A stretch of DNA of 64,000 bases, taken from assembly GCF_018130765.1 (NCBI RefSeq), contig NZ_JAFCJZ010000001.1:434001-498000 (forward strand). Direction: 5' to 3'. The translations under genes were made by a program, and so were the position numbers. The number at the start of each line of letters is the position of its first letter. Position 1 is the first letter of the stretch. The notes under the pieces were generated by a model, which made no database searches, was not told where the DNA came from, and saw only the letters and a program-made list of their open reading frames with translations. This stretch comes from Bradyrhizobium iriomotense. Its GTDB lineage: Bacteria; Pseudomonadota; Alphaproteobacteria; Rhizobiales; Xanthobacteraceae. Below are positions 6,647 through 17,069 of the stretch, in pieces.

Positions 6647-7770
6647 ACCAGCGAACGCCGACACTGCTCTATATCGATGACGACGACGCGCTGGCGCGCC
6701 TCGTCGAGCGCGGCCTGACGCGACGCGGCTACAGAGTCGTCCACGCCGCGAGCGGCGAGGAAGGCCTCGAGCAGATCCGCCGCGCCTGCGCCCAAGACAG
6801 CATCAAAGAAAACATCGAAGGCGGCATCGACGTCGTGGCGCTCGACCAGTACATGCCGGGCCTCGACGGCCTCGATACGCTCGAGCAGATCATGGCGATC
6901 CCGGACGCCCCGCCCGTGGTGTTCGTCACGGCGTCGCAGGATTCCAGCATCGCGGTCACCGCGCTGAAGGCGGGTGCAGCCGACTATCTCGTCAAGGACG
7001 TCAAGGGCGACTTCATCCCCCTGCTCCACGTCGCCGCCGAGGGCGCGCTGCGCCAGGCCGAGATGCAGAAGGCACGCGAGGAGGCGGAAGCCGAGATTCA
7101 CGCCTCGCGCGACCGCTACGCCGCGCTTGCCGCCGAACGCGAGATGCTGCTGCGCGAGGTCAATCACCGCGTCGGCAACTCGCTCCAGATCATCGCCTCG
7201 CTGCTGCACCTTCAGGCCAGCTCCGCCGCGCAGGAAGAGGTCAAGGCCGCACTGACCAACGCGATGGGCCGCGTCGCCGCGGTCGCGCAGGTGCACCGCC
7301 GCCTCTACACCTCGCAGGATCTGAAGAGCGTGGTCCTGAACCAGTATCTGGACTCGCTGCTCGAGGATCTGCGCCGCTCGGCCGAAGGTAACCGGATGTC
7401 GCGCCTGACGCTGAAGGCCGAGCCGATCGAGATCGACCCGGACCGCGCGGTCGCCGTCGGCATCATCGTCAACGAGCTGGTGATGAACGCAGTGAAATAC
7501 GCCTATCCCGACGGCGCGGGCCCGATCCATGTCGAGCTGACCTCGCAGGGCGAGGACCTGCTGCTGACGATCGCCGACGACGGCGTCGGCGACAATGTCA
7601 AGGCCGACCCGCGGTCCACCGGCATGGGCCAGCGCATCGTCGCGGCCATGGCCACCAAGCTCGACGCCTCGGTGGAGCGCGACCCCACCCATTCCGGAAC
7701 CCGCATCGTGCTCAGGTTCCAGCGCCTCCCCGCGCCACCCGGCAAGGCCAACAGCGCCGCCGCGAGCTGA
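6643..7770 (+). CDS. Hybrid REC-HisKA_2 sensor kinase without membrane domain
   Basis: A 375-residue soluble protein joins an N-terminal receiver (D68 in ALDQYMP, K118 in LVKDVKG) to a HisKA_2-type kinase. The kinase has a coiled linker (about 138-170), the H-box REVNHRVGNSLQ (H175) and an HATPase domain (IIVNELVMNAVKYAYP, ADDGVGD). Kinases of the HisKA_2/HWE class act on PhyR in the general stress response of several alphaproteobacteria, and the operon is preceded by an EcfG-type promoter. Feedback control of the stress pathway is therefore a reasonable inference. The receiver probably takes phosphate from the upstream kinase, directly or through the single-domain regulator. Confidence 0.9.
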   Translation: MNQRTPTLLYIDDDDALARLVERGLTRRGYRVVHAASGEEGLEQIRRACAQDSIKENIEGGIDVVALDQYMPGLDGLDTLEQIMAIPDAPPVVFVTASQDSSIAVTALKAGAADYLVKDVKGDFIPLLHVAAEGALRQAEMQKAREEAEAEIHASRDRYAALAAEREMLLREVNHRVGNSLQIIASLLHLQASSAAQEEVKAALTNAMGRVAAVAQVHRRLYTSQDLKSVVLNQYLDSLLEDLRRSAEGNRMSRLTLKAEPIEIDPDRAVAVGIIVNELVMNAVKYAYPDGAGPIHVELTSQGEDLLLTIADDGVGDNVKADPRSTGMGQRIVAAMATKLDASVERDPTHSGTRIVLRFQRLPAPPGKANSAAAS

Positions 7771-7827
7771 CCCGCACCTCTCCGCCCCCATCGCAACCGC
7801 ATTGCGATCCTGCTATGGTCACAGGCC

Positions 7828-8508
7828 ATGACTTCGCGCGATTCCGCCTCGTCTGAGATCACGCCGGCCGTACTGCTGCGCGCCTATGCCTGCGGCATCT
7901 TTCCGATGGCCGAAAGCGCCGACGATCCGACCCTGTTCTGGGTCGAGCCCGAGCTGCGCGGCGTCATCCCGCTCGACGGTTTTCGCGTGGCCTCGCGGCT
8001 CGCACGCACCGTGCGCTCGGACGGCTTTCGCGTCACTGTCAACACCGCCTTCAAGGCCACGATTGCCGGCTGCGCCGCGCCGCAGGCCGGGCGCGAGGAC
8101 ACCTGGATCAACAAGCGCATCCGCGACCTCTATGGCGGCCTGTTCGAGCTCGGCCACTGCCACAGCGTCGAGGCCTGGCAGGACGACGAGCTCGTCGGCG
8201 GGCTCTATGGCGTGAGCCTGGGACGGGCCTTCTTCGGCGAGAGCATGTTTCACACCGCGCGTGATGCCTCCAAGGTCGCGCTGGTGCATCTGGTGGCGCG
8301 GCTGATTCATGGCGGCTTCGAGCTGCTCGACACGCAATATGTCACCGAGCACCTGAAGAGCTTTGGCGCCGTCGAGATTTCGCGCCGCCGCTACACCGCA
8401 CTGCTCGACAAGGCGCTCGCGGGAGATCCCGGCGAATTCCTGAGGCTCTCGTCCGGTGACGCGATCCCGGGTGCGCGTGCACTCGAGATCATCGCCTCGC
8501 GGCAATAG
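7828..8508 (+). CDS. aat: Leucyl/phenylalanyl-tRNA-protein transferase
   Basis: Aat adds Leu or Phe from charged tRNA to N-terminal Arg or Lys of proteins, creating N-degrons for ClpS/ClpAP. The 226-residue protein shows the family signatures [38 protein letters not shown] and the C-terminal block with FFGESMFH and [16 protein letters not shown]. It starts at ATG 7828, 57 nt after the phosphorelay operon, and converges with the DUF2155 gene. Presence between acc genes and DUF2155 is common in alphaproteobacteria. Confidence 0.95.
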
Positions 8509-8546
8509 ATCACGTTTATCGGCTGCCGAACCCGGGGGGATTTGGG

Positions 8547-9542
8547 CTAGCGCCCAAACCCCGGGATACCGAACAGGCCCGGCCGCTGCTCCGGTGGTGG
8601 TGGCGGCGCCGGCTGCGCTTGCGGCGGAGGCGGCAACGGCTGCGGCGGACGCTGCTGCACGGCCTGCTTGGGCGCGGCCTTCTTCTGCGCCGGCGGCGGC
8701 GGAGGCGCGGGCCTGCTCGCGGGATCTGGCGCCGCGGTCGCGATGGTCTGCTGCGGCTCTTTGCAGTCGGTCAGCCAGATGTCGTAGATCGGATGCTCGA
8801 CACCGTGCAGGCCGGGGCTTGCCGCGTACATCCAGCCCGAAAAGATCCGCTTCACCTCGCCCTGCAAGGTGATCTCGTCGACCTCGACGAAGGCGTCGGT
8901 GTTGGCGGCTTCGGTCGCCGGCCGCGTGTAGCAGGCGTCGGTCTTGACGCGGAGCGCACCGAACTGGACGGTCTCGCCGATCTCCTCGTCGAAATTGATG
9001 ATGCGCCCGGTGATCTTGTCGAGGCCGGAGAAGGTCGCCTTCTTGTTGACGATCTTCTGGGCGGGCGGCTCGGTCACGACCTCGTCGCCCGGCTGCAGGC
9101 TCGCCGGCGTCTGCGGGACCGTGCCCGGCGCACCCTTTTGCTGCGGCGGGCGCTGACCGGGCGCACCCGGGGCGCCTTGCGGATTGGGCGGCGCGACCGC
9201 GACGGAGGGCGGCTGGTTCGGCGGCGCGACGCTGGAGCCCGGCGGCGGCGCCAGCGGCTGGGTCTCGACCGGCCCCGGCATCACATTCCCCTGCCGGCCC
9301 GGCGGTGGCGCCATCGGGCGCGACGGCAGCACGCGGCCCTGCGGCGGCAGCTCTGGCACCTCTTCGTCGTCCTCGGGAATCTGTTGCGGCTGCGGCTGGC
9401 CACGCGGAATGTTGCCGGGCGGCCGCAGCGGCGGCGGATCGGAGAAGATCGTGCCGATCTGCGCCTGCGCAGGCGTCGCAACCGTCAGCGCGGTGGCGGC
9501 CAAAAGCGCCGCAAGGCCTGTCAGGGTAAGGGTTTTGAACAT
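8547..9542 (-). CDS. DUF2155 domain secreted protein, proline-rich
   Basis: The 331-residue exported protein has a signal peptide (MFKTLTLTGLAALLAATA, cut after AQA). A long Pro/Gln-rich disordered segment (about residues 30-165) follows. The conserved DUF2155 core (about 175-285) contains ITGRIINFDEEIGETVQFG, LRVKTDACYTRP and the segment FSGWMYAASPGLHGVEHPIYDIWLTDC. The C-terminus is again Pro/Ala-rich. The function is unknown; the family is alphaproteobacterial and usually sits next to NDUFA12. ATG 9542 gives a clean signal peptide; in-frame starts at 9581 and 9653 would place extra residues before it. The gene converges with aat. Confidence 0.85.
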   Translation of the reverse strand: MFKTLTLTGLAALLAATALTVATPAQAQIGTIFSDPPPLRPPGNIPRGQPQPQQIPEDDEEVPELPPQGRVLPSRPMAPPPGRQGNVMPGPVETQPLAPPPGSSVAPPNQPPSVAVAPPNPQGAPGAPGQRPPQQKGAPGTVPQTPASLQPGDEVVTEPPAQKIVNKKATFSGLDKITGRIINFDEEIGETVQFGALRVKTDACYTRPATEAANTDAFVEVDEITLQGEVKRIFSGWMYAASPGLHGVEHPIYDIWLTDCKEPQQTIATAAPDPASRPAPPPPPAQKKAAPKQAVQQRPPQPLPPPPQAQPAPPPPPEQRPGLFGIPGFGR

Positions 9543-10855: not shown

Positions 10856-11854
10856 ATGCTCTCCCTCCTCTTCACGCTCCCCCTGCGCGCCCTGACCTGG
10901 CTCGGCGACCAGGGCACGCGCGCCGTGGCGGCGATCGCGTTCATCGCGGTCGCAGTGCCGCCGCTCGGCGCGCTGCTGCGTCCCTACGTGACCGAAGCGA
11001 TCCTATGCCTGCTCTGCATCTCCTTCATGCGGGTCAATCTCATCGCGCTTTACGGCCATCTCCGCCGGCCGGCCTTGATTGCTGCTGCGACGGCCTGGAC
11101 CACGATCGCCGTGCCGCTGATCGTCGGGCTGCTCGCCCATGGCAGCGGCCTCGACGGAAGCTCGCCCGGCCTCTTCCTCGCGCTGATGCTCCAGGCCATG
11201 GCCTCGCCGATGATGGCCGCGCCCGCGCTGGCCGCGCTGATCGGCCTCGATGCCACGCTGCCGCTGGTCACGTTGGTCACCGCGACCGCGCTCGTGCCCT
11301 TCACGGCCTCGTTGTTCGCAAGCCTGTTTCTCGGCGGCATGCTCAGCATCTCGCCGCTGACGCTCGGCCTGAAGCTGCTCGGCATCCTCGCGGCATCGCT
11401 GATCGGCGCAACGGCGATCCGCTGGATGTTCGGTGCCGCGGCCATCCAGCGCCACAAACGCCCGATCGACGGTTTCAACATCCTCATCCTGCTGGTCTTC
11501 GCGTCCGCCGTGATGGGCGACGTGGCGCGCGACTTCGTCGCCGATCCGCTGTTCACGATCGGCGTCGCGCTGCTCGCCTTCGCGGTCTATTTCACCTTGC
11601 TTGCTGTGACGACGCTGATCTTTCGCCGCGCCGGCACCGAGCGTGCGTTTGCGATCGGCCTGATGGTGTCACAGCGCAATCTCGGCCTGATGCTGGCGGC
11701 GACCGCGGGCGTGCTGCCGCCGACGACCTGGCTCTATTTCGCGCTGACGCAGTTTCCGATTCATCTTGCGCCCTATCTGCTGACGCCGATCGCGCGGCGC
11801 CTGACGGCGCGCGCAGATACGTCCGGCGGCGAGACGGCAAATCGTACGACCTAG
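10856..11854 (+). CDS. Bile acid:sodium symporter-like membrane transporter
   Basis: The 332-residue integral membrane protein has roughly nine or ten hydrophobic helices with short loops. Its size, the paired helical halves and segments such as LALMLQAMASPMMAAPALAALIG and RAFAIGLMVSQRNLGLMLAA resemble the BASS (SBF) transporter superfamily. I assign the superfamily with moderate confidence and no substrate. The RNLGL segment near helix 9 corresponds to the conserved crossover region of BASS proteins. The gene follows the esterase after a palindromic repeat. Confidence 0.65.
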   Translation: MLSLLFTLPLRALTWLGDQGTRAVAAIAFIAVAVPPLGALLRPYVTEAILCLLCISFMRVNLIALYGHLRRPALIAAATAWTTIAVPLIVGLLAHGSGLDGSSPGLFLALMLQAMASPMMAAPALAALIGLDATLPLVTLVTATALVPFTASLFASLFLGGMLSISPLTLGLKLLGILAASLIGATAIRWMFGAAAIQRHKRPIDGFNILILLVFASAVMGDVARDFVADPLFTIGVALLAFAVYFTLLAVTTLIFRRAGTERAFAIGLMVSQRNLGLMLAATAGVLPPTTWLYFALTQFPIHLAPYLLTPIARRLTARADTSGGETANRTT

Positions 11855-11912
11855 GCCTGTGCCAAGCCAGGATGCGGCTGCTGTCGTTATTGCGGAGTAC
11901 TCCCGCCGACCT

Positions 11913-11985
11913 GCGGATCGATCCGCCCCATACCCCGTCAGGGTGATTCTTCACGCGGGATACGAAGCCTATCCTGACGTTCAGG
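11913..11985. promoter_or_regulatory. Two palindromes upstream of the synthetase fusion gene
   Basis: A perfect 14-bp palindrome GCGGATCGATCCGC lies at 11913-11926. An inverted repeat CCTGA-N3-TCAGG lies at 11973-11985, ending 17 nt before the annotated start of the fusion gene. They are candidate operator sites; no matching regulator is identified. Confidence 0.4.
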
Positions 11986-12001
11986 CACCTCACGGGCTTG
12001 G

Positions 12002-15000
12002 TTGTCCTGCGCCTTACGTACAGGCGGGTGGGAGGAAGTGGTGTTCCGTCCCGATGCGCATGGTGTCGCACGTTCTCAGCTCACTGCCTTCAGCCAATGG
12101 TGTGAGGCCCGAACGGGGCGGCAGCTGCGCGATCACGCTGCGATGGACCGCTTCTCGGTCGAGGACTACCACAGCTTCTGGCGCCTCTTCCTCGAATGGT
12201 CCGACGTGCCCCGGGACGGTGCAGCCGAGCCCGTCTGCGTCGGCGATGCCTGCGAGACCGCGCGCTTCTTCCCGGATCTCCGTCTCAACTACGCTGAATG
12301 CCTTCTCGCCGGCGGTTCCGGCGAGCCGGTCCTGACCGCGTGCCACGCTGACGGCAGCCGCGAGCGGTTCACGCGTGGCGCATTGCGCGTCACGGTTGAT
12401 CGACTGGCAAAGTCGTTGCAGCGGCTCGGTGTGCGCCCAGGCGACCACGTCGTGGCAATCGCACGCAACAATGCCGAGGCGGTGATTGCCTGTCTGGCGA
12501 CCGCCGCCATTGGCGCGACTTTCGCCAGCTGCGCGCCGGACATGGGCGTGCCCGCCATCCTGGCGCGGTTCGCCCCTCTCGAGGCCGTGGTGCTCTTCGG
12601 CTGCCTTCAAGCGGAGCGATGGGATGCGGGCGTGCCCGTCGCCGAGCGCGTCCTCGAAACGGCAGCCGGCCTGCCGAGCCTCGCAGCGATCATTGCGCTG
12701 GACGATGGCTCGCTTGACGTCGACGAAGGGACGACACCGCTGCACAGGCTTACCGATCTGCTCTGTGATGATGGTGGCAAGGATGGGCCAGGCTGGCCCC
12801 GCCACCCATTCAACCATCTGCTCTTCACGATGTTCTCTTCGGGCACTACAGGCCCGCCGAAATGCATCCAGCACGGCGCCGGCGGCACCTTGCTGGAGCA
12901 TCTGAAGGAGCACCGGCTGCACTGTGATCTCAGGCCCGGCGATAAGCTGTTCTTCCAAACCTCCTGTGGTTGGATGATGTGGAACTGGCAGCTCTCCGCG
13001 CTGGCGTCGGGCGCCGAGATTGTCCTCTATGACGGGCCGCTCGCGGCGGCAGATACGTTCTGGCGGATCGTTGCCGAGGAGCACGTCACCGTTTTCGGCA
13101 CCAATCCGGCCTATCTGCACTTCTGCGAGCAGAAGGGTTTCGTCCCCGGCCAAGTGTTCGACCTTTCTGCCCTGCGTGCCATACTCTCGACCGGCTCCAT
13201 CTTGTATCCGCGCCAGTACGACTGGGTCAGCAGCAAAGTGAAGGCGTCGATGCCGCTGCAGTCGATCTCAGGTGGCACCGACATCATGGGCTGCTTCGTC
13301 CTCGGCAATCCGGATCTCCCGGTCCATCGCGGCGAGGCACAGTGCCGCAGCCTCGGCCTTGATGTCCGCTCGCTGCCGCCGCCTGACGATCCGCAGGCAA
13401 AGATAGGCGAGCTGGTCTGCGCCAATCCTTTCCCGTCGCGCCCCCTCGGCTTTCACGGCGATGCCGACGGCACCCGCTTCCACGCTGCCTACTTTGCTCA
13501 GAATCCCGGCTTTTGGACCCATGGCGATCTGATCGAGGCCACGCCCCATGGGGGCTGGCGCTTGCATGGTCGTTCAGACGGAGTCCTCAATGTGCGCGGC
13601 ATCCGCATCGGAACCGCGGAGATCTACCGCATCCTCGCTGACGTCGGGGAGATCGTCGAGGCGATGGCGGTCGAGCAGCAAGCAGAAGACGAGCCAGGCG
13701 GCACGCGCATGGTTTTGTTGCTCGTGCTGCGCAAAGACGTGGTCCTTGACAGCGCATTGGCCAAGCACATTCGCACGGAGCTTGCGCGCTGCGGCTCGCC
13801 GGCCTTCGTGCCGGCGCGTATCGCACAGGTCGAGGCTCTTCCCGTCACCTTTAACGGCAAGCGGTCCGAAGTCGCAGCGCGGGATGCGGTGAACGGCCGC
13901 ACAGTACGGAATCTCGACGCCCTGCAGAATGCCGAATGCCTTGATGCCATTGCCAACCATCCGGTTCTGCGGGCGTCTGCGACCGTCAGTGCTCGGGAGC
14001 CGACCCCGGTCTGTGGAGTGCTCCCGGATGCCGAGCAGCTGCGAAAAGAACTGCAGGCGATCTGCGAGCGCGTGCTGGACATCGCTCCCATCGGCTGGTC
14101 CGATAATCTTATGGACTGCGGCGCGGACTCGCTGGCCGTGGTGAGCCTGCTCCTCGAGATCGAGAGCTATGCGGGGCATGCGGTGCCCCTGTCGGCCTTT
14201 CTTGGCGCGCCGTCGATCGAAGGCCTGTCCGCGGTCCTCTCCGGCGCGGAGGCTCTGACGGATCGGCAGCTTGGTCGATCGGGCCTGCATGTCCGTGCCG
14301 TGGGTCCGGAAGACGTGGAGCCGGTCTGCCACTTCCTCGAGGAAGCGTTTTGCGAGTCACGCATCGAGGCAACGACATGGCGCCGCCTGTTCGATCATGG
14401 CTGGTCGGATCACCGGCGCGGCTTCATGCTTTTCGACGGCAACGCGTTGGTTGGGTTCATCGGAGCCGTTGTTGCCCCGCGGCAGGTCAACGACGAGGCA
14501 GTCCTCGTCTGTAATCTGTCCTCCTGGGTTGTACGCGCGCAGTACCGGGGCTGGGGAATGGCACTGCTCGCCTCAATGCTGGATGACGCGAACGCCACAT
14601 ATACGTGCTTCACCCCGCAGCCGTCAGCTTGGGCCGCTCTCATGGCGCAGCGTTTCAAAACGCTGGAATCGCAGCGCATCGCCATGCCGCCATTGCTGCA
14701 GGCCGCGACCTTGTTCGCGTCGACCCGGCCGCGGATCAGCTTCGATCCGGCCGTGGTCCGCGAGAGGCTGACCAGCCAGCAAAGGCAAATCTTTCACGAT
14801 CACGCACCTTACGATTGCCTGCAGCTCGTCATCATCGACGGGCCCGATCATGCCTATCTCGTGGTGAAACGCCGCGAACATCGTCCTGCAGCGCGCCGAC
14901 TGGGAGTCCTGGCGCGGTTCCTGCCGCGGCAAATCCCCTATTCGGACATTCTGCATTGTAGTGCACCGGACCTGCTGTTGCGGCATCTCGAGCGCGTCAA

Positions 15001-15172
15001 GCTGGCGATCCTGCGCCGGCAGCGGACGGCAGCGCTCGTCGCGGAGGCGCGGCTTTTTCCGGTCCGACCACGAGGCGTGGTACTCCCGATGAGCACGTGC
15101 TTCCGCTCCCCGTTGACCGCCGCCGGTGAGCTCGACAGACTGTATTCGGAAATCGTGCTCCTGCCCATTTGA
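12002..15172 (+). CDS. Acetoacetyl-CoA synthetase-like / carrier protein / GNAT fusion
   Basis: This 1056-residue protein joins three modules. Residues about 1-640 resemble acetoacetate-CoA ligase (ACS superfamily), with FHSFWRLF-like N-terminal segments, the ATP loop FSSGTTGPPK at 278-287, SGGTDIMGCF and the HGRSDGVLNVRGIRIGTAEIY hinge block. Residues about 675-750 form a phosphopantetheine carrier domain with the attachment serine S710 in DCGADSL. Residues about 762-900 look like a GNAT acyltransferase with a QYRGWGMALL acetyl-CoA-binding motif near 847-856, followed by about 150 residues without assignment. The module order suggests that a beta-keto or related acid is activated, loaded onto its own carrier arm, then transferred by the GNAT domain. 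The start is uncertain: TTG 12002 gives the family-like N-terminus, and GTG codons at 12038-12043 are alternatives. It converges on a methyltransferase gene 23 nt away. Confidence 0.85.
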   Translation: MSCALRTGGWEEVVFRPDAHGVARSQLTAFSQWCEARTGRQLRDHAAMDRFSVEDYHSFWRLFLEWSDVPRDGAAEPVCVGDACETARFFPDLRLNYAECLLAGGSGEPVLTACHADGSRERFTRGALRVTVDRLAKSLQRLGVRPGDHVVAIARNNAEAVIACLATAAIGATFASCAPDMGVPAILARFAPLEAVVLFGCLQAERWDAGVPVAERVLETAAGLPSLAAIIALDDGSLDVDEGTTPLHRLTDLLCDDGGKDGPGWPRHPFNHLLFTMFSSGTTGPPKCIQHGAGGTLLEHLKEHRLHCDLRPGDKLFFQTSCGWMMWNWQLSALASGAEIVLYDGPLAAADTFWRIVAEEHVTVFGTNPAYLHFCEQKGFVPGQVFDLSALRAILSTGSILYPRQYDWVSSKVKASMPLQSISGGTDIMGCFVLGNPDLPVHRGEAQCRSLGLDVRSLPPPDDPQAKIGELVCANPFPSRPLGFHGDADGTRFHAAYFAQNPGFWTHGDLIEATPHGGWRLHGRSDGVLNVRGIRIGTAEIYRILADVGEIVEAMAVEQQAEDEPGGTRMVLLLVLRKDVVLDSALAKHIRTELARCGSPAFVPARIAQVEALPVTFNGKRSEVAARDAVNGRTVRNLDALQNAECLDAIANHPVLRASATVSAREPTPVCGVLPDAEQLRKELQAICERVLDIAPIGWSDNLMDCGADSLAVVSLLLEIESYAGHAVPLSAFLGAPSIEGLSAVLSGAEALTDRQLGRSGLHVRAVGPEDVEPVCHFLEEAFCESRIEATTWRRLFDHGWSDHRRGFMLFDGNALVGFIGAVVAPRQVNDEAVLVCNLSSWVVRAQYRGWGMALLASMLDDANATYTCFTPQPSAWAALMAQRFKTLESQRIAMPPLLQAATLFASTRPRISFDPAVVRERLTSQQRQIFHDHAPYDCLQLVIIDGPDHAYLVVKRREHRPAARRLGVLARFLPRQIPYSDILHCSAPDLLLRHLERVKLAILRRQRTAALVAEARLFPVRPRGVVLPMSTCFRSPLTAAGELDRLYSEIVLLPI

Positions 15173-15195
15173 AGGCGGCGCGAGTTAGAACGTTC

Positions 15196-15990
15196 TCATG
15201 CCGGCGCTCCCGCAGGTTTCGACGCCTTGAAGATATAGCGATTGGTGCTGAAGAAATATTGTCCCGCCCCGGCGAGGCGCTCGAACTCGCTGTGCCACGC
15301 ATCGAGATCATCGGCTGTAACGTCGTTCGTGCGGCTGACGAAATTCCGGATACCCTGGGCCAGTCCCTTGCTGTAGCTCTCGTCATCGTACCGCAAGTTC
15401 AGAATCGGAAAGACGGATGCTCCGTCCAGATGAAATCCGGCATTGATCAGTCTGGAGGCCATCGATCTCGGCAGATGCGGATGGGCGCAATGCGCCTCCC
15501 ATGATGTCATGACGGCAGCCATGCGTTCCCGGTTGTCGGAATGCCAGACCACGGCGTCCCAATCCGTTGCGACAAAAATCGTTCGGCCGCCCGGTTTCAG
15601 GACGCGAAACGATTCGATGAGGACGCGGTCGACATCGGGCACGTACTCGGCGACCTGAGTGCACACGACGGCGTCAAACGATGCATCGGGCTGGCCCAAT
15701 TGCGTCGCGTTGCCGATGGCATATGAAATCCACTCCGAAGCCTTCTGCCGGTTGCAGACGGCGATCAGGTCTGTCGACACATCGATGCCTACGACAGATC
15801 CATGAGGCCCGACGAGCCGCGCCATGCTTTCGCAGAGATAGCCCGGACCGCATCCGATATCGAGAACACGCTCGCCGGCAGACAGATCGAGCTGCCGGAT
15901 TGTCTCCGCGCGCTGCGCCTTCACATCGGCCGTGAGATAGAGTCTCTGGAGCCGTTTTGCGTTCTCATTGCTGTACTCCATTCCGCTCAT
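15196..15990 (-). CDS. Class I SAM-dependent methyltransferase
   Basis: The 264-residue soluble protein has the SAM-binding motif I VLDIGCGPGYL, an acidic motif II (VVGIDVS), and FDAVVCTQVAEYVPD and LKPGGRTIFVATDWD in the positions expected for a methyltransferase of the UbiE/arsenite/small-molecule type. I chose the ATG at 15990 because GGAGG lies 6 nt upstream; ATG 16002 is in frame. It lies 35 nt downstream of the GlxA-like regulator in the same direction and is probably cotranscribed. It converges on the synthetase-carrier-GNAT gene, so it may tailor that product, but nothing in the sequence proves this. Confidence 0.88.
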   Translation of the reverse strand: MSGMEYSNENAKRLQRLYLTADVKAQRAETIRQLDLSAGERVLDIGCGPGYLCESMARLVGPHGSVVGIDVSTDLIAVCNRQKASEWISYAIGNATQLGQPDASFDAVVCTQVAEYVPDVDRVLIESFRVLKPGGRTIFVATDWDAVVWHSDNRERMAAVMTSWEAHCAHPHLPRSMASRLINAGFHLDGASVFPILNLRYDDESYSKGLAQGIRNFVSRTNDVTADDLDAWHSEFERLAGAGQYFFSTNRYIFKASKPAGAPA

Positions 15991-16025
15991 CGTCGCCTCC
16001 ATGGTCGCACGGCAAGTGAGATTCC

Positions 16026-16964
16026 CTATCCCGCCCGCGCCGCGCGCCGCAGGGCCTGGGGCGGCTGGCCGAAGGCGCGGATGAAGGCGCGCCGCATGCG
16101 CTCGGGGTCGCGGAAGCCGGTCGTTTCTGCAACGAGCTCGATCGCCTCGCGCGAGGACTGCACGCGCTCGCGCGCGACTTCGAGCCGCAAGCGCTCGACC
16201 GCCTTGGACGGCGTCGTGCCGGTCTCGGCGGCGAAGGCGCGGGCAAAATGCCGCGCGCTCATCCCGGCGCGATCGGCGAGTTCCTCCACGGTCAGCGGCG
16301 CGTCGAGATTTTCGCGCGCCCAGGATAGCAGCGCACCGAACCGGCCGTTCGGCGTCTTCAACTCCAGCAGCGAGGAGAATTGCGACTGGCCGCCGCTGCG
16401 GCGATGGTACAGCACGAGCTGCCGCGCCGTCGCCTGCGCGATCTCCTCGCCCTGGTCCTCGGTGACCATCGCCAGCGCGAGGTCAATGCCCGCCGTGATG
16501 CCCGCCGAGGTCCACACATTGCCGTCGCGGGTAAAAATCTGGTCGGGCTCGAACTTCACCCTGGGATAGCGCGCGACGAAATCGCGCGTCCGTCCCCAAT
16601 GCGTGGTGGCGCGGCGGCCATCGAGCAGGCCGGCTTCAGCGAGCACATAGGCGCCCGAGCAGACGCTCGCGACCCGCACGCCGCGCTTTGCCAGCCGCTG
16701 CACGAAGGCGCGCGTGACCTCGCAGCGTGCGGCTTCCGCGACGCCGGCGCCGCCCGCGATGACCAGCGTCGTGATCGCATTCGCCGACTTCAGATCTCGC
16801 GCCATCATCTCGACACCCGACGAGCTGCGTACAGGCCCCGCATTCAGCGCCAGCACCCGGAGCGCAAGCGGCTTGCCGGACGCACGTGCCGCGATCTCGA
16901 ACACCGAGATCGGACCTGCCGCGTCGAGCAGTTGGAAATCCGGGAAGATCAGGATGCCAATCAT
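16026..16964 (-). CDS. GlxA-family transcriptional regulator (DJ-1/PfpI + AraC HTH)
   Basis: The 313-residue regulator begins with a DJ-1/PfpI-like domain (about 1-170). This carries the nucleophile-elbow segment SVCSGAYVLAEAGLLDGRRATTHW, which may bind a small ligand rather than catalyse. The C-terminal AraC-type double helix-turn-helix (about 215-310) shows LTVEELADRAGMSARHFARAF and TGFRDPERMRRAF. ATG 16964 gives the usual IGILIFPDF start; the longer in-frame extension is not family-like. It is divergent from the isonitrile-hydratase-like gene across 105 bp with an inverted repeat, and upstream of the methyltransferase on its own strand. It most likely controls the divergent DJ-1 gene and itself. 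Confidence 0.9.
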   Translation of the reverse strand: MIGILIFPDFQLLDAAGPISVFEIAARASGKPLALRVLALNAGPVRSSSGVEMMARDLKSANAITTLVIAGGAGVAEAARCEVTRAFVQRLAKRGVRVASVCSGAYVLAEAGLLDGRRATTHWGRTRDFVARYPRVKFEPDQIFTRDGNVWTSAGITAGIDLALAMVTEDQGEEIAQATARQLVLYHRRSGGQSQFSSLLELKTPNGRFGALLSWARENLDAPLTVEELADRAGMSARHFARAFAAETGTTPSKAVERLRLEVARERVQSSREAIELVAETTGFRDPERMRRAFIRAFGQPPQALRRAARAG

Positions 16965-16983
16965 GGGCCAGGTCCTAACGTCA

Positions 16984-17018
16984 TGTCCGAAAGTGAGGGA
17001 ATTATGCCGTTTTGGACA
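16984..17018. promoter_or_regulatory. Inverted repeat in the GlxA/DJ-1 divergent control region
   Basis: TGTCCGAAA (16984-16992) and TTTTGGACA (17010-17018) form an imperfect inverted repeat with one mismatch, centred between the divergent start codons. It is a candidate binding site for the AraC-type regulator. Confidence 0.45.
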
Positions 17019-17069
17019 GAAGGGCATCATGCCAGTTTGCGCCCGTCAAGCTCTTCATTGGAGGTTCTC

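Follow-up and report, generated by a model that had tools for sequence, protein, structure and literature searches.

A fusion of an acetoacetyl-CoA synthetase-type ligase, a carrier domain and a probable GNAT-type acyltransferase in Bradyrhizobium iriomotense

The DNA analyzed here, termed the window in the following, is a stretch of 64,000 nucleotides from Bradyrhizobium iriomotense (contig NZ_JAFCJZ010000001.1, positions 434,001 to 498,000, in an assembly of 8.38 Mb). At 12002..15172 on the plus strand it carries a gene of 1056 codons with a TTG start and a stop codon at 15170-15172, whose frame is unbroken and can be extended upstream by only 8 in-frame codons (open frame of 1064). As claimed before by a sequence-only reading, this single frame encodes one multi-domain protein, in which a ligase (residues 12-652), a carrier domain (residues 683-745) and an acyltransferase part (residues 763-1056) follow each other, with the motif GADSL starting at residue 707 (hence S710) and QYRGWG at residue 847. 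The ligase-carrier-acyltransferase fusion is real and conserved; it follows a familiar logic, realized here with a type of ligase that is not known to act in such a role, and its last domain is exchangeable. A ligase-carrier-GNAT fusion was not found described in the literature searched, with subscription papers mostly outside the search. Between 11700 and 15400, no promoter-like site was detected (0.6 expected by chance).

The ligase domain (12035..13957, plus strand) was assigned as an adenylating domain derived from acetoacetyl-CoA synthetase (AACS). Residues 12-652 reached 608.5 bits against the NCBIfam profile TIGR01217 (acetoacetate-CoA ligase, cut-off 520.9), which confirms the AACS-like ligase proposed from the sequence, and PRK03584 was likewise above its cut-off. 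The AACS of Streptomyces lividans (PDB 4wd1) was matched with an E value of 7e-128, residues 14-634 of the fusion aligning with residues 9-631 of 658, and both catalytic motifs and acyl-pocket places are kept. The same structure was the top Foldseek result for the full-length structure model; because only its ligase part is of good quality, with a predicted local distance difference test (pLDDT) mostly between 80 and 98, the Foldseek result covers this domain alone. With the exosortase-A-associated ligase family TIGR03098, the protein showed 50.1 bits, below the cut-off of 592.35. The phosphate-binding loop SSGTTG (residues 279-284, 12836..12853, plus strand) does not vary at any position, either among the 20 fusions or among the 92 ordinary AACS.

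The carrier domain (PP-binding; 14048..14236, plus strand) showed 40.8 bits against PF00550 of Pfam (cut-off 20.8), and its modelled helices comprise residues 677-692, 699-705, 710-724 and 739-746. The predicted phosphopantetheine site Ser710 (codon 14129..14131, plus strand) lies within this match, as had been claimed, and is the first residue of the third helix, with a local model confidence below 50 at residues 697-711. A serine at this place was found in all 22 proteins compared (the window protein, 20 relatives and one from genome G569), within GADS in 21 of them and GVDS in the remaining one (G303). The genome of the window also holds two matches over cut-off to the phosphopantetheinyl-transferase family (PF01648).

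The C-terminal part (14288..15169, plus strand) had been divided by the sequence-only reading into a GNAT domain with the motif QYRGWG (residues 847-852, 14540..14557, plus strand) and an unassigned stretch of 150 residues. The latter assignment did not hold. Since stand-alone relatives of about 280-350 amino acids align with residues 757-1056 entirely, across the GNAT part as well as the tail, the last 150 residues make up the second half of this acyltransferase family, and the best plasmid matches span 94-97% of a 302-residue query. As judged from these alignments, residues 763-1056 are one acyltransferase of about 290 residues, which is probably of the GNAT type. Profile comparison gave no internal duplication in the C-terminal part, and a search of viral contigs confirmed no relative of this GNAT family. 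Compared with the PDB, the profile of the family showed weak matches only, the best being an alanine N-acetyltransferase (E 0.018).

Among 265 genomes of the genus, 23 matched the carrier-GNAT part at an E value of 1e-30. Of these, 15 hold an intact GNAT-type fusion (including the one in the window), 4 a fusion with a hexapeptide-type end and one a fusion with an AAC(3)-type end, while the remaining three comprise separate genes (G257), fragments (G265) and two frame-broken copies (G118). In a careful tree, the 20 Bradyrhizobium fusions form one clade on a long stem against 31 AACS (support 100/100); every third AACS was used for this tree, in which a truncated paralogue forms a long branch, and two further trees with intact paralogues were calculated by a quicker method. 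One genome from another family of the class carries an intact version of 1101 residues, with identities of 71% (ligase), 49% (carrier), 47% (GNAT part) and 64% (tail). A 747-residue frame in G788 was considered as another fusion and rejected, as it showed no Pfam match and is probably over-extended.

These data bear on whether the fusion could be a decaying gene or an accidental read-through of neighboring genes. Frame-broken or fragmentary copies do occur: besides the two in G118, they comprise one of two copies in G179, the fragments in G265, a second place in G152 and a piece at a contig end in G028, and the genome with the AAC(3)-type fusion also holds a frame-broken GNAT-type copy. The two copies in G118 (L144:7759-10927 and L145:9359-12423) are broken at different places. 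However, the 15 intact full-length copies and the intact relative in another family contradict such an origin, and in seven GNAT-type pairs the ratio of non-synonymous to synonymous substitution rates (dN/dS) was 0.11-0.68 over all four segments (ligase, carrier, GNAT, tail). For four pairs of hexapeptide ends it was 0.20-0.31, while the values of 0.68 to 2.57 in the C-terminal columns of hexapeptide-type pairs relate to a short non-homologous tail only. Because of the selection result, decay or read-through is largely contradicted and is considered highly improbable; the fusion is genuine, as the sequence-only reading had assumed.

The exchange of domains provides a further view of the protein. 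In four genomes, the same ligase-carrier pair is joined to a hexapeptide-type acyltransferase (one of them, L170, matched in a PF00132 scan, which covered this one only; the other three were called by sequence), and in one genome to an AAC(3)-type end (L173, PF02522 at 116.7 bits). Both types retain roughly 30 residues from the start of the GNAT part and then continue in frame into a different acyltransferase. The hexapeptide-type fusions (L110, L170, L171, L172) show about 25 additional N-terminal residues, which we take to be similar to the beginning of an IS256-type transposase. In genome G214 (L174), it is the ligase that differs, since the carrier-GNAT end is joined to one of the PRK08162 type (857.8 bits). 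Ligase and carrier are also covered by at least seven plasmid records of Burkholderiales with 51-54% identity (among 12 of 73 matches listed). Five of the seven were fetched, and the two annotated ones were scanned for thioesterase: these proteins of 1029 and 1022 residues both end in a PF00975 thioesterase over cut-off. The other three frames comprise 1045-1089 residues, and the motif GYS[FL]GG is present in four of the five proteins. In the databases, the two annotated proteins (L323:9938-13027 and L324:9947-13015) are named just acetoacetate-CoA ligase, and the Cupriavidus gene of this kind adjoins integrase and transposase genes. In a quick tree, nine fusions and the five thioesterase-type proteins grouped as a single clade with a support of 1.0, apart from 46 ordinary AACS.

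For a comparison of residues, 95 AACS frames were collected, three of which were dropped for length, and the 20 fusion ligases were set against the remaining 92. Of the collected frames, 92 comprise 620-800 residues, whereas the fusion adds a carrier and an acyltransferase. The places of V310, T311, V386 and W414 of acetyl-CoA synthetase (Acs), corresponding to M325, M326, T397 and G424, are identical in all 20 fusions and all 92 AACS; the first three are presumably acyl-pocket places. Acs W414 is described as the size determinant for the acid (PMC10455477). Because these four places are identical in both groups, an acid of the size of acetoacetate is argued for, and acetoacetate is our best guess from this conservation.

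A different picture was obtained for the places of CoA contact. Out of 193 columns conserved to at least 93% in AACS, the fusions share the majority residue in 149, and among those that differ are the places of Acs Arg584 and Ser523 as well as the RH pair 601-602. The catalytic lysine (Lys620, 13859..13861, plus strand, at the place of Acs Lys609) and the residue at the place of Acs R526 are both retained in 20 of 20 fusions. The place of Acs R194 is basic in one of 20 fusions compared to 91 of 92 AACS, and that of S523 is Arg (19) or His (1) compared to Gly (91) or Gln (1); we take both places to have a role in CoA binding. At codon 595 (13784..13786, plus strand), the place of Acs Arg584, the window protein has Ala, as part of 19 Ala and one Val in the fusions against 89 Arg and 3 Lys in AACS. 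In Acs, Arg584 binds the CoA 3'-phosphate and Arg191 likewise touches CoA phosphates, and a role is also given for R526 (PMC10455477). The A8 motif of the window protein, GRSDGVLNVRGIRIGTAEI (residues 523-541, 13568..13624, plus strand), differs from its AACS counterpart ..NPGGVRI.. as well, and in the fusions GRSDAxLNPGGVRI of AACS is replaced by GRSDGVLNVRGIRI. The latter presumably resembles the A8 consensus of non-ribosomal peptide synthetases (NRPS). The order of adenylation domain and carrier as well as the A8 RGxRI of NRPS-like adenylation-carrier (A-T) enzymes are both present in the window protein. We read the ligase as a putative carrier-loading adenylation domain that derives from acetoacetyl-CoA synthetase and would feed the attached acyltransferase.

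The protein might instead still be an AACS that forms free acetoacetyl-CoA, with the carrier and GNAT parts serving regulation, for example by self-acylation of the active-site lysine. Acetyltransferases modify the active-site lysine of Acs and thereby control this enzyme, and the ligase score over the curated TIGR01217 cut-off, the retained Lys620 and an arginine of the window protein at the place of Acs Arg191 would fit such a function. Regulation explains, however, neither the carrier domain nor the fact that other domains (hexapeptide, AAC(3)-type, thioesterase) can take the place of the GNAT part, and the residue contacting the CoA 3'-phosphate is lost. Retained synthesis of free acetoacetyl-CoA is thus regarded as unlikely. 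A second, more distant AACS homologue in the genome of the window (G000:C56, L320:6683-6976 and 6977-8731, minus strand) is interrupted by an in-frame stop, whereas G029 holds it as a single frame and many relatives show a match without stops; a sequencing error is possible in the genome of the window.

Not only fused, but also separate genes for activation, carrier and transfer were observed. On pSymB of S. meliloti (L192:7938-11968), in a region with glycosyltransferase genes, a GNAT relative lies beside genes for an AMP ligase, a pyridoxal phosphate-dependent decarboxylase and a carrier protein, and the same four-gene set, again surrounded by glycosyltransferase genes, is found on pAU20a of Aureimonas (L191:6759-11680). 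Its GNAT-like protein, annotated as 'hypothetical', belongs to the same family as the C-terminal part over nearly the whole length (26-28% identity), and the logic of activator, carrier and transferase is shared. Unlike the fusion, the genes are separate, the ligase ('exosortase A system-associated') is of another family and another acid is expected; the set could be an aminoacyl decoration system. A related arrangement is the GNAT relative beside FkbH and a carrier in G257, and in Paludibaculum one lies beside a gene for a HAD-IIIC phosphatase (the class of FkbH) and polysaccharide genes. In contrast to the fusion, an FkbH-type protein activates in these sets instead of an adenylating ligase.

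In a first set of loci, activator and carrier were found at 9 of 19 and an activator at 10. The set originally comprised 20 loci, of which L220 was dropped since its GNAT gene was not refound by tblastn; it was selected (3 of many stand-alone hits in the genus, two in the genome of the window, G257, 4 of 52 plasmid records and the hits in the class minus two close relatives) and is partly circular, as the search profiles drew on sequences from several of its loci (in the case of FkbH, both sequences). A further 40 loci supplied none. They comprise all 24 matching genomes outside the class with one place each and 16 of 20 genomes of the same order outside the genus, some stretches being shortened by contig ends. 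Within 5 kb of the GNAT gene, an activator was found at 14, a carrier at 14 and both at 10 of these loci, including 8 of the 16 within the order, while 96 control stretches (regions flanking AACS genes of other genomes, 9.8 kb versus about 10.9 kb) showed an activator in 8, a carrier in one and both in none. On contig 9 of the genome of the window (L112:415-10797), a GNAT relative has AMP ligases and small carrier proteins at a distance of 5-9 kb, and GNAT relatives near such genes were also seen at L213, L215, L219, L292 and L294-L299. At several loci of the first set, apparent short-chain dehydrogenases were noticed by eye near the GNAT relatives.

The fusion of the window is flanked by a membrane-protein gene upstream (10856..11854, plus strand; assigned by eye, with no Pfam or NCBIfam family over cut-off), which marks the insertion site, and by a DJ-1/PfpI-AraC type regulator identified by Pfam (16026..17030, minus strand). 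In G005, G011, G014, G016 and G022, these two genes lie about 20-260 bases apart without a fusion, while in G165 and G196 the fusion is located between them. Because the flanking genes are nearly adjacent in five related genomes, the fusion looks inserted at this place, and from the sequence comparison it looks like an orphan insertion. In the comparison of the empty sites (window 11855-16025; L305, L307, L308, L309, L312, L314), a methyltransferase stands between both genes in G002, and in the window the fusion as well. There is no neighborhood common to all fusions, small groups of genomes sharing neighbors. Polysaccharide genes were found in the fetched stretch of at least 9 of the 20 genomes with an intact fusion (four hexapeptide types, the AAC(3) type and four GNAT types); the counts are lower bounds, since not all neighbors were scanned, and G017 and G244 were included by similarity to scanned neighbors.

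Altogether, we consider it likely that the protein is a self-contained, carrier-dependent acyltransferase, in which an acid is activated, loaded onto the protein's own carrier and moved by the attached transferase. Based on homology, the N-terminal domain would adenylate a short beta-keto acid or a related acid, most likely acetoacetate. The fused carrier and the residue changes suggest that the acyl group would then be placed on the phosphopantetheine of Ser710 and not on free CoA. In a third step, for which domain swapping and the separate-gene relatives speak, the GNAT-type domain may pass the carrier-bound acyl group on to an amine or hydroxyl group, most likely of a sugar in a surface polysaccharide or its precursor. 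As an activate-load-transfer unit, the protein is well supported by its architecture, and this part of the sequence-only reading is strengthened by the exchange of the last domain, the exchange of the ligase and the existence of separate-gene trios. A sugar as acceptor is our best guess by analogy to variants and relatives. E. coli Aas and the Dlt system share acid activation, a carrier-bound acyl group and a dedicated transfer with the fusion, while their transferase domains are different and the carrier is a separate protein.

The first two of these steps are shared by an alternative with which the probabilities overlap, namely that the protein is an NRPS-like enzyme of secondary metabolism that joins the acid to a small amine or amino acid and forms a diffusible product instead of decorating a cell-surface sugar. 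The A-T architecture with its NRPS-like A8 motif would agree with this, and so would the sister clade of the fusions, which is of the ligase-carrier-thioesterase type. NRPS-like A-T-thioesterase enzymes (quinone and furanone synthetases) also combine adenylation, carrier and one terminal catalytic domain. In G023, the fusion lies near genes for an adenylating enzyme, a formyltransferase-like protein and a small protein with a homologue showing a weak carrier match. Unlike those synthetases, the window protein showed no thioesterase match in Pfam and its ligase is of the AACS type. Known fungal enzymes of this architecture join aromatic alpha-keto acids (PMC9047271). Against a diffusible product stand the lack of a common biosynthetic neighborhood at the fusion loci and the location of variants and several stand-alone GNAT relatives in polysaccharide loci. 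A role in secondary metabolism is possible, though doubtful.

The following observations weigh against a carrier-dependent transfer to a sugar by a GNAT-type domain. Regarding the ligase, the place of Acs Arg191, which is aromatic in 91 of 92 ordinary AACS, is Arg in the window protein (R206) and in 4 of 20 fusions. Because two distant AACS homologues are also without Arg at the place of Arg584 (Glu in G029, Asp in G072), the change at this place is suggestive, not conclusive, for a lost use of CoA. Among the five relatives of the thioesterase type, Asn or Lys stands at the place of R526, and one protein carries Lys at that of R194. For the C-terminal part, the GNAT match at residues 764-861 was below the Pfam cut-offs (Acetyltransf_9, 17.3 against 25; Acetyltransf_1, 14.8 against 20.7). 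The order of strands and helices after residue 762 is GNAT-like in a model that is poor there (pLDDT about 22-66), and a separate model of the C-terminal 300 residues, based on two sequences, reached a pLDDT of 37 and was left out of the fold search. The GNAT assignment made from the sequence is probable: motif and order of secondary structure are GNAT-like, although the scores lie below cut-off and the model confidence is low. In its strict form, motif A, [QR]xxGx[GA], which is QYRGWG in the window protein, was found in 8 of 17 fused GNATs and in none of 59 stand-alone relatives, and RGx[GA], which can also bind CoA, in 17 of 17 compared to 9 of 59. Outside the class, just 2 of the 24 GNAT loci hold both partners. 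Concerning the acceptor, none of the six scanned neighbors of the fusion in the window is a polysaccharide gene, and only 4 of 15 GNAT-type loci (G171, G303, G214 and G168) showed such genes in the scans, which covered part of the neighbors. For this reason a sugar as the acceptor is deduced largely from the variants and the relatives.

In a wider sense, there may be an even chance that a carrier-loading adenylation domain arose a single time from AACS and thereby founded a branch of A-T enzymes, undescribed in the literature searched, in Bradyrhizobium, another alphaproteobacterial family and Burkholderiales. With a terminal domain interchangeable among four unrelated catalysts, GNAT, hexapeptide, AAC(3)-type and thioesterase, this would be a natural plug-in system by which short keto acids are joined to surface sugars or to acceptors of another kind. 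A CoA ligase of the central metabolism would then have become a carrier-loading enzyme, with changes at the places of CoA contact, and single-gene constructs would allow a test of this shift. The swapped transferase domains would be a natural experiment on how unrelated acyltransferases read a carrier. The acetoacetate pool from the turnover of storage polymers is a possible source of the acid, and acylation with keto acids would join the ways in which soil bacteria may decorate their surfaces.

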